DNA of 49,341 bases, taken from Parvibaculum sp. GTDB taxonomy: Bacteria; Pseudomonadota; Alphaproteobacteria; Parvibaculales; Parvibaculaceae. Positions 30,583-38,448 of the stretch are shown here, piece after piece. Location: NCBI RefSeq assembly GCF_002684405.1, contig NZ_NYVD01000075.1, forward strand, positions 1 through 49,341, written 5' to 3'. Made by a program: the position numbers and the translations under genes. Each line of letters starts with the position of its first letter. The first letter of the stretch is position 1. The notes below the pieces were generated by a model that was not told where the DNA came from, made no database searches, and was given only the letters and a program-made list of their open reading frames with translations.

Positions 30583-32478
30583 CTAGGCCTCGCCGCTGAC
30601 ATCCTGCACCTGAAGTTCGTAAAGCGTCTTGTAGAGACCGCCCAGCGCCATGAGTTCCTCATGGCTGCCGATCTCGCGCACTTCGCCATGGGTGAGCACC
30701 ACGATCTTGTCGGCCTCCCGGATCGTCTGCAGGCGATGCGCGATGATGATAGAGGTGCGCCCGCGCGTCAGTTCGCGCAACGCATCCTGAATGACGATCT
30801 CCGTTTCCGTGTCGATGCTCGCCGTCGCCTCGTCGAGGATCAGGATTTCCGGGTTCATTGCCAGCACGCGTGCGAACGCCAGAAGCTGGCGCTGGCCATG
30901 GCTGAGATTGCGCCCGCGCTCCGTCAGCACCGTGTCGTATCCCTGCGGCAGGGCGCGGATGAAGGGATCGGCATGCACCATCCGGGCCGCGCGTTCCGCC
31001 GCTTCGCGCGTGATGGCTGGATGTCCGAGTGCGATATTCTCGTAAACGCTGCCCGAAAAGATATGGAAGTCCTGCAAAACGACGCCGATCCGCGTTCGGA
31101 TCTCGGCAGGCAGGACCTGCATGATGTCTATTCCGTCGATCAGGATCGATCCTGGCGTCACATCGTAGAAGCGGCAGAGCAGCCGGATAAGGCTCGTCTT
31201 GCCCGAGCCCGTGGGGCCGACGATCGCAACCTTCTCGCCCGGCTCGATGGCGAAGCTGACATCCTTGAGGATCGTGTTGTCGGGTGAGTAGCCGAAAGTG
31301 AGATGATCGAAAGTGACGCGGCCCTCGAGCTTTTCGGGAAGATGCCGGGGCTTCGACGGTTCAGCCAGCGCCTCGTCCCAGTCCAGCGCCTGGAAGATGC
31401 GCTCCGAACTCGCCATCGCCCGGAAAAGTACGTTCCATTGTTCGCCCATGGCGACGATGGGCCGAAACATCATGTCGGCAAATTGCGCAAAGAGGACGAC
31501 GCTGCCCAGCGTGGCCGTTCCGCCCAGCACATGATGGCCGCCGAACCAGATGATCATCGACATGGCGAGAAAGGCCATGCTGTCCATGGTCGGGCCGTAA
31601 AAGCTCTCGATCAGGATTGCCCGGTTTTCCTGTCCCCGATTGTCGCGATTGATGGAGGTGTAGTGATCGTAGTTGAGCCGCTCGCGTCCATAGAGCTGCA
31701 CGACTTCGATGCCGGAAAGGTTTTCCTGCATGTTCTCGTTAAGGCGCGAAAGCGAGGACCGGATCGCCCGATAGACACGCCGTGACGCGACCCGGAAGAC
31801 ATAGGTGGCGACGGCGGCAATCGGCAGCAGCACCATCAGTTCGCCGGTCAGCACCGGATCGAGCGCAAGCATGACCGAGACGGCAACGAAGAAGGGCACG
31901 AATTCGCCCAGGAGCACGCCGAAGCCTGCCAGCAATTCGAAAAGCGTCTCGATGTCGTTGGTCAGGCGGGTCATCACCCGGCCCACGGCGACGCGGTCGT
32001 AGAAGCTCGAGGGCAGCCGCTCCAGATGTGCGAAGAGATCGCGCCGGAGATCGCGCAGCGCATGGAGCACGGTGCGCGCCAGCATGATGCGGAAGCCATG
32101 GCTGAACACGGCCCACAAGACTGTCCACACAGCAAAGAGCATGCAGGCGGTAATGAGCGGATGAAGCGAGAGCGACGACGCGAGGAAACCGTTCAGCGCC
32201 TTCTGGCCGAAATCGGGGGCGGTCGTGCCGGATTCGGGCAGCAGGATGCCGTCCACCACAACGCGGCTGATGACGACGGGAGCAAGGACCGCGGCGCTGG
32301 CAGACAGCAGCACCAGACCGATGGCAATGAAGCCTTGCGTCCGATAGGGCTTCATCCAGCTGAAAAGCCGTTTCAGCAAGGCAAAGTCGACGCCGGTCGT
32401 TTCGATATCGTCTTCGAAGACGGAATAGTCGCGCTTGGGCTTTTCCTGTTCCGGCGTCATCCGGTCGACCGTACTCAT
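30583..32478 (-). CDS. ABC exporter half-transporter, MdlB-like (canonical Walker B)
   Basis: 631 residues. Six membrane helices (about residues 45-330) are followed by a nucleotide-binding domain. Walker A is GPTGSGKTSL (about 417-426), Walker B ILILDEATAS with the catalytic glutamate present, and the switch histidine is IIIAHRL. The signature is NLSHGQRQ instead of LSGGQ, so the signature is degenerate. With its partner it should form a heterodimer with one active and one degenerate ATP site, as in MdlAB or TM287/288. The start overlaps the stop of its partner by four bases. It exports an unknown lipid or drug substrate. It ends 9 bases from a convergent gene with no clear terminator between. 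Confidence 0.9.
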   Translation of the reverse strand: MSTVDRMTPEQEKPKRDYSVFEDDIETTGVDFALLKRLFSWMKPYRTQGFIAIGLVLLSASAAVLAPVVISRVVVDGILLPESGTTAPDFGQKALNGFLASSLSLHPLITACMLFAVWTVLWAVFSHGFRIMLARTVLHALRDLRRDLFAHLERLPSSFYDRVAVGRVMTRLTNDIETLFELLAGFGVLLGEFVPFFVAVSVMLALDPVLTGELMVLLPIAAVATYVFRVASRRVYRAIRSSLSRLNENMQENLSGIEVVQLYGRERLNYDHYTSINRDNRGQENRAILIESFYGPTMDSMAFLAMSMIIWFGGHHVLGGTATLGSVVLFAQFADMMFRPIVAMGEQWNVLFRAMASSERIFQALDWDEALAEPSKPRHLPEKLEGRVTFDHLTFGYSPDNTILKDVSFAIEPGEKVAIVGPTGSGKTSLIRLLCRFYDVTPGSILIDGIDIMQVLPAEIRTRIGVVLQDFHIFSGSVYENIALGHPAITREAAERAARMVHADPFIRALPQGYDTVLTERGRNLSHGQRQLLAFARVLAMNPEILILDEATASIDTETEIVIQDALRELTRGRTSIIIAHRLQTIREADKIVVLTHGEVREIGSHEELMALGGLYKTLYELQVQDVSGEA

Positions 32479-34346
32479 GACGGTTCCTCCCCTTCCTGCC
32501 GGCCAAGGTCGTCTTCAAGCGAGGCGCGCTGTCCTTGCGCACGTTCGAGCGCGGCATATAGACCGTTGCGGGCAAGAAGCTCGCTATGCGTACCGGTCTC
32601 CGCGACGCGGCCATCCTCGAGCACAACGATGCGGTCCGCATGGCGCGCGGTGGAAACGCGGTGCGATACCATCATCGTGGTGCGGCCTTTTCTGAGTGTC
32701 TTCAGACGGGAGAGGATGAACTCTTCCGTCTCGGTATCCACCGACGAGAAGCAATCGTCGAGCAGAAGCACCGGCGTTTCCCGGATCAGGCCGCGGGCCA
32801 GGCTTGCGCGCTGCTTCTGTCCGCCCGACAAGGTGACGCCGCGCTCGCCGACCATGGTTTCGAGCCGCTCGGGAAAGCGCTTGATCGTGGTTTCGAGATC
32901 GGCCGCTTCCGCCGCGCCCCATACCGCCTCGGCTTCTCGCGAGGGATTGTCGTAGGAAATATTCTGCTGCAGATGCGCGGCGAAAAGGAACGGATCCTGC
33001 GGCACCAGAGCGATCTGGCTGCGTAGCTGCGTCAGCGGCAGCATGCGGATATCGCGCCCGTCGAGATAGACCGTGCCCGGTGGCGGGTCGAGCAGGCGGA
33101 CGAGACAGCGCAGCAGGGTGGATTTGCCCGAGCCCACGCGGCCCAGTATCGCGATCATCTCGCCCGCTTCGATATTGAGGGACACGTCGTTGAGCGCCGG
33201 CCAGCCATCCGGTGCGTCGCCGGAGGACGATGGATGCCGGTAGGAAAGCCCGTTGACGGTAAGCGTTCCGCCGATCCGGTCGAGCGGGGCGGCATCGGGT
33301 TCGTCGCGGATTTCCGGACGATGGTCGAGAATCTCGAAAATGCGCGCCGCAGCCGACCCGCCACGCTGAAACAGCGTGACCATAATGCCACCTTCCTTGA
33401 TCGGCGCCAGCATCATGGCGAGATAGAAGATGAAGGCGGTGAAGGTGCCGATACTGATACCGCCCGACATGACCAGATGGCCGCCATAGCCGACCACCGC
33501 GAGCGTGGTGAAGCCGGTGGCGACCAGCATGGTCGAGGTGAGCGCCGAATTCAGGAACATCAGCCGGTAATAGTCCCGTGCATAGGTATCCGACGTCTTC
33601 TCGAAGCGGTCGATCTCGCGGTCTTCCTGGGCGTGGGTCTGGATGGTGCGGATGCCGTTCAGGTTTTCCTGCACTTGAGCCGACAGGATGGAAAAGCCCT
33701 GTTGAACCAGCATGGACTGGCCGAAGATGCGCTTTGCAATGAGCCAGCCCGCCACGCCGAAGACAGGAAGCGCCGGCACCATCAGCAGCGTCAGCATGGC
33801 CGATTGATGGAACATGAAGGCAAAGGCGATGATTCCGGAGAAACCCAGGACGAAAAGAAGCCGGGTGCCGAGCCCCACCATCTGCCGAATGAGGGTGATG
33901 TCATTGATCGCCCGCGCCATCAGATCGCCCGTGGTGAAACGCGAGAAGAAACGCGGCCCCTGAAGTTCCAGATGCCAGTAAAGGCGTTGGCGCAGCTCAT
34001 AGGCGACTTCGACCCCAACCTCCCGGACGAAACGCCGCCCGAAGCTGAACGCGATATAGCGAAGCACCATCAGTCCCAATATGGCGAGCGCGGGCAGGGC
34101 AAGGGCGTAGCTGCCTGCCGCGATCCGGTCGATGCCCTCTTTCAGGAAGAGCGGCATGAAGGCTTCCAGAAGCCGTCCCAGATTGATGAGCGACATGCCC
34201 CCCCAGAAGCGCCATTTGTGACGCTGCACGAAGGGGATAAGCCGCCTGAGCGGATGGGCTCCTTGCATGTCATCGGATGATGCCGGGGCCGCAGCCGGGA
34301 TCGGCTCGGTCTCTGGATCGGGGCTGGATGTCGCGGATAAGGCCAT
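32475..34346 (-). CDS. ABC exporter half-transporter, MdlA-like (degenerate Walker B)
   Basis: 623 residues. Six helices, then an NBD with Walker A GRVGSGKSTL (about 393-402), a full signature LSGGQKQR, and Walker B VLLLDDCFSS. In Walker B, aspartate replaces the catalytic glutamate. The switch histidine is present in MMVSHRVSTARHADR. The pairing of a good signature here with a good Walker B in the partner gives one complete composite site. The degenerate signature of the partner faces this Walker B. The N-terminus has an unusually acidic, proline-rich extension (PDPETEPIPAAAPASSDD). It is the first gene of the two-gene operon. Confidence 0.9.
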   Translation of the reverse strand: MALSATSSPDPETEPIPAAAPASSDDMQGAHPLRRLIPFVQRHKWRFWGGMSLINLGRLLEAFMPLFLKEGIDRIAAGSYALALPALAILGLMVLRYIAFSFGRRFVREVGVEVAYELRQRLYWHLELQGPRFFSRFTTGDLMARAINDITLIRQMVGLGTRLLFVLGFSGIIAFAFMFHQSAMLTLLMVPALPVFGVAGWLIAKRIFGQSMLVQQGFSILSAQVQENLNGIRTIQTHAQEDREIDRFEKTSDTYARDYYRLMFLNSALTSTMLVATGFTTLAVVGYGGHLVMSGGISIGTFTAFIFYLAMMLAPIKEGGIMVTLFQRGGSAAARIFEILDHRPEIRDEPDAAPLDRIGGTLTVNGLSYRHPSSSGDAPDGWPALNDVSLNIEAGEMIAILGRVGSGKSTLLRCLVRLLDPPPGTVYLDGRDIRMLPLTQLRSQIALVPQDPFLFAAHLQQNISYDNPSREAEAVWGAAEAADLETTIKRFPERLETMVGERGVTLSGGQKQRASLARGLIRETPVLLLDDCFSSVDTETEEFILSRLKTLRKGRTTMMVSHRVSTARHADRIVVLEDGRVAETGTHSELLARNGLYAALERAQGQRASLEDDLGRQEGEEPS

Positions 34347-34942
34347 GAATACGGACCGGGTTCGGCTGGGAAGGCACAGAAACCCCGTCCCCGGCGCAAG
34401 CCCGGAAGACAGGAAACGGTCCGCCTGCCGGAAGATGCCTCCTCCTCCCTTCCCGCAGCGTCGGGCTCACTCTAGGGGGGCTTTGTGTGATTCGGAAGAT
34501 AGGGGTGAGATTCGGCTGGAGCCGTCGAAAAACGAGCGGTCACGGGCCGGGGAGGGGGAATGCGCGGCCCGCGGTCGGCGCGCTGTGGAAAATATTCAGT
34601 AGGGGAACTAAATAAGGTTCGCCGCGTGCGATCGAGCGCAGTTATTGCGTAGCCCGGCTACGGAGTAGGCATTCTGAGTTATCGAATGTCGAGCTATGTA
34701 ATCCGAATACATGAAAATTGCGACGAGGTTGAGTTGACGTGAAAGAGCTTTGTAATCGAACAGGCATTTCATCTTCACCTCTTGGCCTCACTGCCTAAGG
34801 TCCCGTGCAGGGATCCTGAACTGGCACGCGTTATGGCGATGGGGGATGCGGCTGCAGGAGGCGGCCACATGACATGACGCATGCCGGTTGGCGCCTGCGC
34901 GTGGCGGGCGAAGGGTCGATAACAGTATGGGGAGGTCCCGTA
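34347..34942. other. 596-bp intergenic region with divergent promoters
   Basis: This gap separates the minus-strand ABC operon from the plus-strand DUF1329 gene. A possible sigma70 promoter for DUF1329 is TTGAGT at 34729-34734 and TGTAAT at 34751-34756, 16 bp apart, in an AT-rich block (34680-34770). That would give a leader of about 180 bases. A small palindrome GTAGCC-C-GGCTAC lies at about 34650-34662. I see no gene with a ribosome site and no tRNA, CRISPR or repeat family. The short reading that would extend DUF1329 upstream from 34874 has no ribosome site. Confidence 0.4.
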
Positions 34943-36304
34943 ATGAAGTATCTCAACGGCGCAGTTGCGTCGGTTATCGCGTTGTCGCTGGGCGTTGCCG
35001 TGGCGCATGCCGATGTTCCGCAAGCGCAGGTCGATCGGCTTGGCAGTGATCTGACACCGGTCGGCGCGGAAAAGGCGGGTAATGGCGACGACATACCGGC
35101 CTGGACCGGCGGTCTGCAGACCATTCCGTCCAATGTGGCTTACAAGGATGGCGAGCATCTGAAGAACCCGTTCCCGGACGACAAGGTGCTCTACACCGTC
35201 ACCGGTCAGAACAAGGATCAGTACAAGAAGTATCTGACGCCAGGCCAGGCGGAGATGCTGAGGCTTTACGATGACTACAAGCTGAATGTCTATAAGACCC
35301 GCCGTACCTGCGCAGTGCCGGACAATGTCTATGCCGCGACAAAGCGCAACGCCAAGGTCGCTCAGCTGGTGGGTAACGGAAACGGCGTCGCCAAGGGCAT
35401 CATGGGCTTCCCGTTCCCCATACCGAACAATGCATATGAGATCATCTGGAACCACACGCTGCGTTATCGTTCCTTCAAGCTGATCCGTCAGTTCGCAGCC
35501 ATGCCGGTGACGAGCGGTGGCGGCTATACGCCGATCATCGTTCAGGACCAGGCCATTCTCTGGTGGTCCGATCCGTCGAAGCGGAACGCGGAGGAGCTGG
35601 ACAACACCTCCATATACTACATCGCCCGCACGCTTGCGCCGGCCCGTGCCGCCGGCAACATCGTGCTGGTTCACGAAGCGATCAACTCCGCCAAGAAGCC
35701 GCGCCAGGCATGGCAGTACAGCCCCGGGACGCGCCGCGTACGCCGCGCTCCCAATATCGCGTTCGACAATCCGGGCGTGAATACGGACGGACTTTCCACC
35801 GCCGACAGTTTCGACGGATACAACGGGTCGCTGGAGCGCTACACCTGGACCGTTCTCGGCAAGAACGAGCGTTTTGCCGCGGAGAACAACTACGATATGG
35901 CGCTCGCCAAATATAAGGACCTCATCAAGGCGCGCCATCTCAATCAGGATCTTCTGCGCTACGAAAAGCGTCGTCTCTGGGAGATCGAGGCGGATCTGAA
36001 GTCCGACACGCGCCATGTCTATCATCGTCGCGTCTTCCATATCGACGAGGATTCCTGGCAGATCGCATCGGCGGAAATGTATGACGGGCGCGGCGACCTC
36101 TGGCGTGTCGAGGAACTGCAGGGGACGACCGCCTACAACGTGCCTCTGTGCGGCTATGCCGGTCAGATGGACTACGACCTCAAAGGGAGCCGCTACCTGG
36201 CCTCGGCCCTCAATAATGAGGAGCCGATGGTCAATTTCTTCGCCGATGAACTGAAGGCGAACGACTACACGCCCAGCTCCATCCGTCGGATGGGCTCCCG
36301 CTAG
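34943..36304 (+). CDS. DUF1329 periplasmic/outer-membrane-associated protein
   Basis: 453 residues from ATG 34943, with GGGGAGG 7 bases upstream. A signal peptide covers about 1-23 (VASVIALSLGVAVAHA). The mature protein begins DVPQAQVDRLGSDLTPVGAEKAGNGDDIPAWTGG-like sequence, the classical DUF1329 N-terminus. The body contains RTCAVPDNVYAAT, IMGFPFPIPNNAYEIIWNH and QAWQYSPGTRRVRRAPNIAFD. These lipoprotein-carrier-like proteins are common near RND/MmpL-type hydrophobic exporters in Pseudomonas and related bacteria and are thought to handle hydrophobic compounds, but no reaction is established. Only two cysteines are present. It is followed by a strong terminator, so it is monocistronic. Confidence 0.88.
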   Translation: MKYLNGAVASVIALSLGVAVAHADVPQAQVDRLGSDLTPVGAEKAGNGDDIPAWTGGLQTIPSNVAYKDGEHLKNPFPDDKVLYTVTGQNKDQYKKYLTPGQAEMLRLYDDYKLNVYKTRRTCAVPDNVYAATKRNAKVAQLVGNGNGVAKGIMGFPFPIPNNAYEIIWNHTLRYRSFKLIRQFAAMPVTSGGGYTPIIVQDQAILWWSDPSKRNAEELDNTSIYYIARTLAPARAAGNIVLVHEAINSAKKPRQAWQYSPGTRRVRRAPNIAFDNPGVNTDGLSTADSFDGYNGSLERYTWTVLGKNERFAAENNYDMALAKYKDLIKARHLNQDLLRYEKRRLWEIEADLKSDTRHVYHRRVFHIDEDSWQIASAEMYDGRGDLWRVEELQGTTAYNVPLCGYAGQMDYDLKGSRYLASALNNEEPMVNFFADELKANDYTPSSIRRMGSR

Positions 36305-36371
36305 GCGGTTTCGCAAAATCGCAATCCGGGCCGCCCGCCCTGGCGGGACCTCCACCGGCACCGGACAAAAG

Positions 36372-36403
36372 GCCCCGGCACGTATGTATGATCGTGCCGG
36401 GGC
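36372..36403 (+). terminator. Intrinsic terminator after DUF1329
   Basis: An 11-bp perfect stem, GCCCCGGCACG (36372-36382) and CGTGCCGGGGC (36393-36403), with a 10-base loop, followed by TCATTGTTT. It lies 68 bases past the DUF1329 stop and insulates the following btaA promoter. Confidence 0.85.
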
Positions 36404-36440
36404 TCATTGTTTCTGGGGCGGTCCGGGCTCCGTCTTTGAA

Positions 36441-36474
36441 GCGTCACATCACTTTCATCGTTTGCCGGTACTAG
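36441..36474 (+). promoter_or_regulatory. Putative Pho box and -10 element ahead of btaA
   Basis: GCGTCAC (36441-36447), four bases, then CTTTCAT (36452-36458): two direct half-sites at an 11-bp period. They compare with the PhoB consensus CTGTCAT-N4-CTGTCAT at 4 of 7 and 6 of 7 positions. TACTAG at 36469-36474 follows 10 bases later, exactly where a PhoB-activated -10 element is expected. Betaine lipids replace phospholipids during phosphate starvation, which makes PhoB control of this operon sensible. The site call is inference from spacing and match. Confidence 0.55.
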
Positions 36475-36525
36475 CAGGACAGGTGCACTCACCTGATTCC
36501 ATCAGTCCGAAAGGAACCGGCTGCC

Positions 36526-37767
36526 GTGTCAGATCCTGCTGTCGTCGTCGAATACCGCAATCCCAAGGAGCGGCTGGGCCATGCCGTGCATCGCCACAAG
36601 CCCGTGTCGCGCGAAGGTTTGACCGAGCGGCTCTTCACGCTTCTCTTCACCGGTCTCGTCTATCCCCAGATATGGGAAGACCCGGAAGTGGATATGGAAG
36701 CGATGGCGATCGAGCCGGGACAGCATGTCGTGGCGATCGCATCGGGTGGCTGCAATGTGATGTCCTATCTCGCGGCAGACCCCGGACGCATCACCGCGCT
36801 CGATCTCAATCCGGCCCATATCGCGCTTAACAAGCTGAAACGCGAAGCGGCTCTTCGTCTGCCGAGCTATGAACATTTCCGCCGTTTCTTCGGCGATGCC
36901 GATAGCAGCGAGAATATCGGATTCTACGAGACCTTCCTGCGCGACAATCTCGACCCCGAGACAAGGCGCTATTGGGAAAAGCGCTCGATTTCGGGCCGCC
37001 GTCGCATCTCTCTTTTCGCGCGCGGTTTCTACCGGCACGGGCTTCTGGGCTCCTTTATCGGCGCGGCCCATCTCGCTGCGAAAGTCTACGGCGTGAAACT
37101 TGCCGAGATCCTCGACCTGAAATCCATGGAAGAGCAGCGGCGCTATTTCGACGAGAAGCTCGCGCCGCTTTTCGATCGCAAGCTCGTGGCCTGGATCACC
37201 TCCAAGCCGGCCTCGCTTTACGGTCTCGGTATTCCGCCCTCGCAATATGAGGCGCTGGCGGGTGGCCGTGAAATGCGCGAGGTCCTTCGCGAGCGCCTCG
37301 AAACGCTCACCTGCGATTTCCCCATCGCGGACAATTATTTCGCCTGGCAGGCTTTCGCGCGGCACTATGGCCCCGATAGCGCGGGCTCTCTGCCGCCTTA
37401 CCTCAAGCGGGAAAATTTCTCCGCCCTGCAGGCGCGGGCCGAACGTGTGGACGTTCTGAACAAATCCTTCACCGAGTTCCTGCGTGCCGAACCCGATGCC
37501 AGCGCCGACCGATATGTCCTGCTGGACGCGCAGGACTGGATGACGGACGAGCAGCTCAACGACCTTTGGGAGCAGATTACGCGCACCGCAAAGCCCGGCG
37601 CACGGGTGATCTTCCGCACCGCCGCCGAACCGACATTGCTGCCGGGTCGTGTCGCCGACGATATTCTGTCTCGCTGGCACTACCGCGAGGCGGAGTCGGC
37701 CCGCTTCACCAGGCAGGACCGGTCTTCGATCTATGGCGGGTTCCATCTCTACGAGCTGGAGAGCTGA
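36526..37767 (+). CDS. btaA: BtaA, SAM:diacylglycerol 3-amino-3-carboxypropyltransferase
   Basis: 413 residues from a GTG start with AAGGAA 9 bases upstream. DUF3419/BtaA family. The N-terminal block LVYPQIWEDPEVDMEAM (44-60), the SAM-related glycine stretch IASGGCNVMSYL (71-82) and DLNPAHIALNKLK (93-105) are characteristic. VLLDAQDWMTDEQLNDLW in the C-terminal third completes the family pattern. It moves the 3-amino-3-carboxypropyl group of S-adenosylmethionine to diacylglycerol, giving diacylglyceryl homoserine, the first step to the betaine lipid DGTS. It acts at the inner membrane. Three bases separate it from btaB, so the two enzymes are made together. Confidence 0.95.
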   Translation: MSDPAVVVEYRNPKERLGHAVHRHKPVSREGLTERLFTLLFTGLVYPQIWEDPEVDMEAMAIEPGQHVVAIASGGCNVMSYLAADPGRITALDLNPAHIALNKLKREAALRLPSYEHFRRFFGDADSSENIGFYETFLRDNLDPETRRYWEKRSISGRRRISLFARGFYRHGLLGSFIGAAHLAAKVYGVKLAEILDLKSMEEQRRYFDEKLAPLFDRKLVAWITSKPASLYGLGIPPSQYEALAGGREMREVLRERLETLTCDFPIADNYFAWQAFARHYGPDSAGSLPPYLKRENFSALQARAERVDVLNKSFTEFLRAEPDASADRYVLLDAQDWMTDEQLNDLWEQITRTAKPGARVIFRTAAEPTLLPGRVADDILSRWHYREAESARFTRQDRSSIYGGFHLYELES

Positions 37768-37770
37768 GCC

Positions 37771-38448
37771 ATGACCGGCCTGTCGCTTCATGATGGAGGC
37801 GTGCCGCATGACGCCTTGATGGACAGCGTCTATCGCCGTCAGCGGCACTTCTACGACGTCACCCGGCGCTACTACCTTCTCGGGCGCGACCGGTTGATCG
37901 AGGACCTCGCGCCGCCCCGAGGCGGTTCCGTGCTCGAAGTAGGGTGCGGGACGGGCCGCAATCTCATTCTGGCTCGCGAAGCGCATCCGCAGGCGGATTA
38001 CTACGGCTTCGATATTTCGAACGAGATGCTGGAGCAGGCCCGCCTCTCTGCCCGCCGGGCCGGACTGGGCGGCGACCTGACATTTGCGCAGGGCGATGCG
38101 GCCGATTTCGATCCCGCCGGCGCTTTCGGTGTGCCGCAATTCGACCGCGTGTTCATGTCCTATACCATCTCCATGATCCCGGTCTGGGAAGACGCAATCG
38201 TCCATGCGGCGACGCTGGTGGCGCCGGGCGGCCGGCTTCACATCGTCGATTTCGGCCAGCAGGAGCGTCTGCCGCGTGTCTTCCGGGCGGGGCTGCATCG
38301 CTGGCTCGCCGCCTTTCATGTGAGCCCTCGTGCCGAGCTGGAGATGTATCTGAATGACATCGCCGCATGGCACGGCGCCAAGCTGCGCTTCGAGCGGTTG
38401 CACCGCGGCTATGCGTGGTATGCCGTTCTGGACTTCGCCCGCGACTGA
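37771..38448 (+). CDS. btaB: BtaB, N-methyltransferase for betaine lipid
   Basis: 225 residues. A class I SAM methyltransferase: motif I VLEVGCGTGRNL (54-65), motif II region YYGFDISNEMLEQAR (about 74-88), and VFMSYTISMIPVWEDA as the motif IV region. The N-terminal segment with HFYDVTRRYYLLGRDRLI is typical of BtaB and PmtA-like lipid methyltransferases. It methylates the amino group of diacylglyceryl homoserine three times, giving diacylglyceryl-N,N,N-trimethylhomoserine. The ribosome site lies inside the btaA end (GGAGAGC). It ends the operon; the next gene starts about 95 bases later without a clear terminator between. Confidence 0.93.
   Translation: MTGLSLHDGGVPHDALMDSVYRRQRHFYDVTRRYYLLGRDRLIEDLAPPRGGSVLEVGCGTGRNLILAREAHPQADYYGFDISNEMLEQARLSARRAGLGGDLTFAQGDAADFDPAGAFGVPQFDRVFMSYTISMIPVWEDAIVHAATLVAPGGRLHIVDFGQQERLPRVFRAGLHRWLAAFHVSPRAELEMYLNDIAAWHGAKLRFERLHRGYAWYAVLDFARD

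Follow-up and report, generated by a model that had tools for sequence, protein, structure and literature searches.

A putative Pho operator upstream of the betaine-lipid genes btaA and btaB in Parvibaculum

Two adjacent genes in a Parvibaculum genome, predicted to encode BtaA and BtaB, raise the question of whether this organism makes the betaine lipid DGTS under the control of the phosphate regulator PhoB. BtaA and BtaB make DGTS from diacylglycerol and S-adenosylmethionine (SAM) (PMC3972451). In Sinorhizobium meliloti, PhoB activates both DGTS synthesis and plcP (PMC3972451), phosphate stress induces btaA and btaB (PMC8829014), and the gene pair is placed in the PhoB regulon by Geiger 1999 and Lopez-Lara 2005, as cited in PMC3972451 and PMC8829014. 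In Phaeobacter sp. MED193, DGTS accumulates at phosphate depletion and plcP is required (PMC4796936). A PhoB-controlled DGTS arrangement is already known, then, in Sinorhizobium and related bacteria and in Phaeobacter; for Parvibaculum, we found no report of a betaine lipid in the literature searched, the coverage of which left out most subscription journals.

The window analyzed here, by which we mean the whole stretch of DNA of 49,341 nucleotides, is contig C75 of a draft genome of 3.42 Mb that is 92% complete. Taken together, the evidence set out below makes it highly probable (roughly 0.92) that the btaA-btaB operon is directly and positively controlled by PhoB, with DGTS made at phosphate starvation.

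The btaA-btaB operon and its upstream region

Table 1. Features of the btaA-btaB locus and of a PlcP-like gene elsewhere in the genome (positions in the window unless a contig is given).
Feature	Position	Strand	Remarks
G+C-rich hairpin, short U-poor tail	36371..36404 (about)	+	probably terminates the DUF1329 gene before it
Distal degenerate third Pho half-site (putative) CCGTCTT	36430..36436	+	box 36431-36448 top-ranked in window; sequence shared with G019 begins here
Pho half-site (putative) GCGTCAC	36441..36447	+	class motif; pstS/plcP-like matrix
Pho half-site (putative) CTTTCAT	36452..36458	+	11 bp after GCGTCAC; pstS/plcP-like matrix
-10-like element TACTAG	36469..36474	+	TA at same distance in class btaA motif
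Perfect inverted repeat CAGGTG-CACT-CACCTG	36480..36495	+	near expected transcription start; 5 of 6 pairs kept in G019
btaA	36526..37767	+	GTG start; predicted S-adenosylmethionine:diacylglycerol 3-amino-3-carboxypropyl transferase (DUF3419); PF11899
btaB	37771..38448	+	ATG start; predicted SAM-dependent N-methyltransferase completing DGTS; methyltransferase domain
PlcP-like metallophosphoesterase (L196)	G000:C34:23780-24763		tandem Pho boxes upstream

The product of btaA matched the DUF3419/BtaA family (PF11899) over its full length in a profile search (E 1.2e-114; 383.9 bits, cut-off 28.2; positions 5-384 of the 385 in the profile), and by family it is predicted to be a SAM:diacylglycerol aminocarboxypropyl transferase; a search for solved BtaA structures found none. 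BtaB matched general methyltransferase domains (E 6.6e-18), and no BtaB-specific model gave a match in the profile libraries searched. The two genes are separated by the 3-base gap that had been read from the sequence at the outset, and each of the 109 related loci has a btaB homologue directly downstream of btaA and in the same orientation.

The original prediction described two half-sites, GCGTCAC and CTTTCAT, at an 11-bp period and a TACTAG exactly 10 bases past the second, and all of these are present as described. It overlooked CCGTCTT, a weaker half-site one 11-bp period upstream of GCGTCAC. In other bacteria, promoters activated by PhoB dispense with a -35 element: PhoB sits on tandem half-sites in its stead, and the -10 element follows about 10 bp further on. 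The btaA upstream region has this Pho-promoter geometry, with tandem GTCA-type half-sites, an 11-bp period and a -10 element after 10 bp. A sigma-70 promoter scan of the region found none, as expected for a Pho promoter, which has no -35 element. The boxes are weaker than the pstS boxes of many relatives in that the proximal half-site reads TTTCAT instead of TGTCAT and the third half-site is degenerate; TTCA at the CTTTCAT position is common within the genus. The degeneracy of single half-sites is what one would expect if they were chance matches or decayed relics, with btaAB expressed constitutively and DGTS a standing membrane lipid, a reading against which the empty sigma-70 scan already counts.

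Comparison with the nearest relative, G019, whose BtaA is 98% identical, bears on the same point. The two sequences are near-identical between CCGTC (36430) and the start codon, and the DNA further upstream cannot be aligned. Conservation thus sets in just where the three-half-site operator has its upstream edge, which argues against a constitutive promoter. The inverted repeat within this conserved stretch could serve as the site of a second regulator or, as a 5' mRNA hairpin, tune message stability, making PhoB one of two inputs; this is compatible with PhoB control. The repeat is perfect, sits at the expected transcription start and is nearly intact in G019, but chance alone can produce arms of six bases, the closeness of G019 leaves their conservation there with little weight, and no comparable repeat was evident by eye in the listed sequences of more distant genus members. 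We consider such a second input unlikely.

The operon had also been described as insulated upstream by a strong terminator. The hairpin is real, and the 76 nt around it fold at -42.1 kcal/mol (z -4.2), with no shuffle folding as well, but a simple scan for terminators passed it over, the U-run after it is weak (CAUUGUUUCU), and G019 lacks it. Insulation of btaA by a terminator is plausible and would be confined to this lineage. The neighborhood itself varies. In most other genus members the ABC transporter gene (32475-34346 in the window) lies directly upstream of btaA and divergent from it, and among the genomes examined only that of the window and G019 carry the DUF1329 (LolA-like) gene (34874-36304) between the two. 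G019 has in addition a divergent open reading frame with a signal-peptide-like start (L127:6057-6581) between btaA and the DUF1329 gene, and this is not present in the window.

Conservation of the operator and matrix tests

An exact search for GTCAC-N6-TTCAT-N10-TA gave a single occurrence in the 3.42 Mb genome, at the btaA promoter, a result that serves as a rarity check only since the pattern was derived from the btaA site itself. Motif discovery was carried out from random seeds on btaA upstream regions of 50 non-redundant loci outside the family. The motif that emerged was CCGTCAT-CAAA-CTGTCACC with a TA some 10 bases later, at Pho-promoter spacing and with an estimated presence in 94% of the regions. 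This TA ranked with the strongest positions of the motif, which had been found without supervision, and including the family gave the same motif. The spacing of GTCA/TTCA half-sites showed a sharp peak at 11 bp, found in 31 of 96 btaA promoters on the forward strand versus 5 on the reverse. The half-sites are thus conserved in relatives across the class with the same geometry, in line with the original prediction and again contrary to a chance origin. The number of tandem GTCA-type half-sites before the -10 element differs among relatives, being three or four in some (L084, L096, L085) and two in others.

When the window btaA promoter was held out and scored with the out-of-family matrix, it reached 7.8 bits, a value attained by 5 of 1000 dinucleotide shuffles (p ~0.005), and in a first scan with this matrix the site ranked third on the + strand. 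Low scores from the same matrix at the btaA promoters of some genus members are the other point in favor of constitutive expression.

A second matrix, specific to the genus, was trained on pstS and plcP-like promoters only; it contained no btaA sequence and nothing from the window genome or its nearest relative. Among 98,648 window positions, it ranked 36431 first (10.2 bits) and 36442 second (7.8 bits), two overlapping boxes that both fall at the btaA promoter. Across 96 btaA promoters, it gave at least 7 bits at 66, compared to 4 on the reverse strand. Scoring the btaA upstream region with an alphaproteobacterial PhoB matrix had been proposed as a check on the original prediction, and a matrix built from pstS and plcP-like promoters does pick out this promoter. 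We regard the ranking by a btaA-free Pho matrix as the most decisive line suggesting that the putative operator is more than chance. On the strength of this rank, the conservation in G019 and the class-wide geometry, we rejected chance half-sites in front of a constitutive promoter, which we judge very improbable.

PhoB and the Pho regulon in the genome and genus

Direct control by PhoB requires the regulator, and one protein in the genome scored above the curated PhoB cut-off (TIGR02154, 363 bits versus 296). About 30 other response-regulator-like matches were found, eight of them full-length and PhoB-like but under that cut-off, and one of these OmpR/PhoB-family proteins might in principle read 11-bp GTCA half-sites and drive the operon under another stress. 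Only a single protein passes as PhoB, however, and the same motif stands upstream of pstS and of the plcP-like gene, which are expected PhoB targets; of the alternatives weighed here, a different regulator seems to us the least probable.

Control by PhoB also fits what lies elsewhere in the genome. It encodes three PstS-like proteins, and the btaA-derived matrix found a box upstream of pstS on contig C58 (12.6 bits) and another at the Pst locus on contig C80 (20.0 bits). Across the genus, too, this matrix placed boxes in front of pstS, its background rate being 0.026 matches per kb and strand at more than 9 bits. The PlcP-like gene is preceded by three GTCA/GTCG half-sites at an 11-bp period. 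Its homologues occur in 26 of 27 genus genomes; of 17 loci scanned, 16 had Pho boxes and the other one is situated at the edge of its contig. The protein is LpxH-like, well under the LpxH cut-off, and the PlcP-like label denotes general resemblance together with the Pho boxes.

A search for the OlsB-type domain of ornithine-lipid synthesis (PF13444) found none in this 92% complete genome, suggesting that DGTS may serve as the chief substitute of the amino-lipid kind. An intact btaA match was absent from three rather complete genus genomes (G013, G017 and G026), all of which have a strong box at pstS (L166, L172 and L167, respectively) and keep the PlcP-like gene. Their retention of both suggests that btaAB was apparently gained or lost within a stable Pho regulon.

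A proposed mechanism and its meaning

From the sequence, we infer the following course of PhoB binding, induction, enzyme activity and DGTS build-up. At low phosphate, phosphorylated PhoB would occupy the three tandem half-sites, which are spaced at an 11-bp period and end 10 bp before the -10 element. There it would stand in for a -35 element and position RNA polymerase at TACTAG, so that the transcript would begin near 36480. BtaA would then transfer the aminocarboxypropyl group of SAM to diacylglycerol, and three methylations of its product by BtaB would yield phosphorus-free DGTS. The diacylglycerol would probably come from phospholipids cut by the co-regulated PlcP-like phospholipase encoded on another contig. 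The original prediction held that PhoB switches this organism from phospholipid to betaine lipid. The conserved operator, the Pho matrix result and the presence of PhoB, Pst and a boxed PlcP-like gene support the betaine-lipid half of that switch; for the phospholipid-breakdown half, the PlcP-like protein is a candidate only.

The proposed system most resembles that of S. meliloti in having the same gene pair in the same order, Pho control (here deduced from the operator) and, as a candidate, a Pho-controlled PlcP-type partner, but differs in that the Parvibaculum operator consists of three weaker half-sites with a proximal TTTCAT and that no OlsB-type domain was found. Phaeobacter sp. MED193 likewise has DGTS genes with putative Pho boxes; its plcP, however, lies upstream in the btaA-btaB cluster, whereas the Parvibaculum plcP-like gene is on another contig with Pho boxes of its own. 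Rhodobacter sphaeroides has, by published description, the same two pathway-defining enzymes (Klug and Benning 2001, cited in PMC3972451).

More tentatively, and at odds that we would put somewhat below even, Pho control may be near-universal among the alphaproteobacterial btaAB operons sampled, with genera differing in the number (up to four) and quality of half-sites and these setting the depth of phosphate shortage at which DGTS takes over from phospholipid; Parvibaculum, in which the proximal half-site often reads TTCA, would then respond late or in a graded manner.

These results would add Parvibaculum to the bacteria with a phosphate-saving membrane switch of this known type and indicate that a Pho operator at btaA is widely common to the class. 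Because the operator appears class-wide, finding DGTS in environmental samples may more safely be taken to signal phosphate stress in alphaproteobacteria that carry a Pho operator at btaA.
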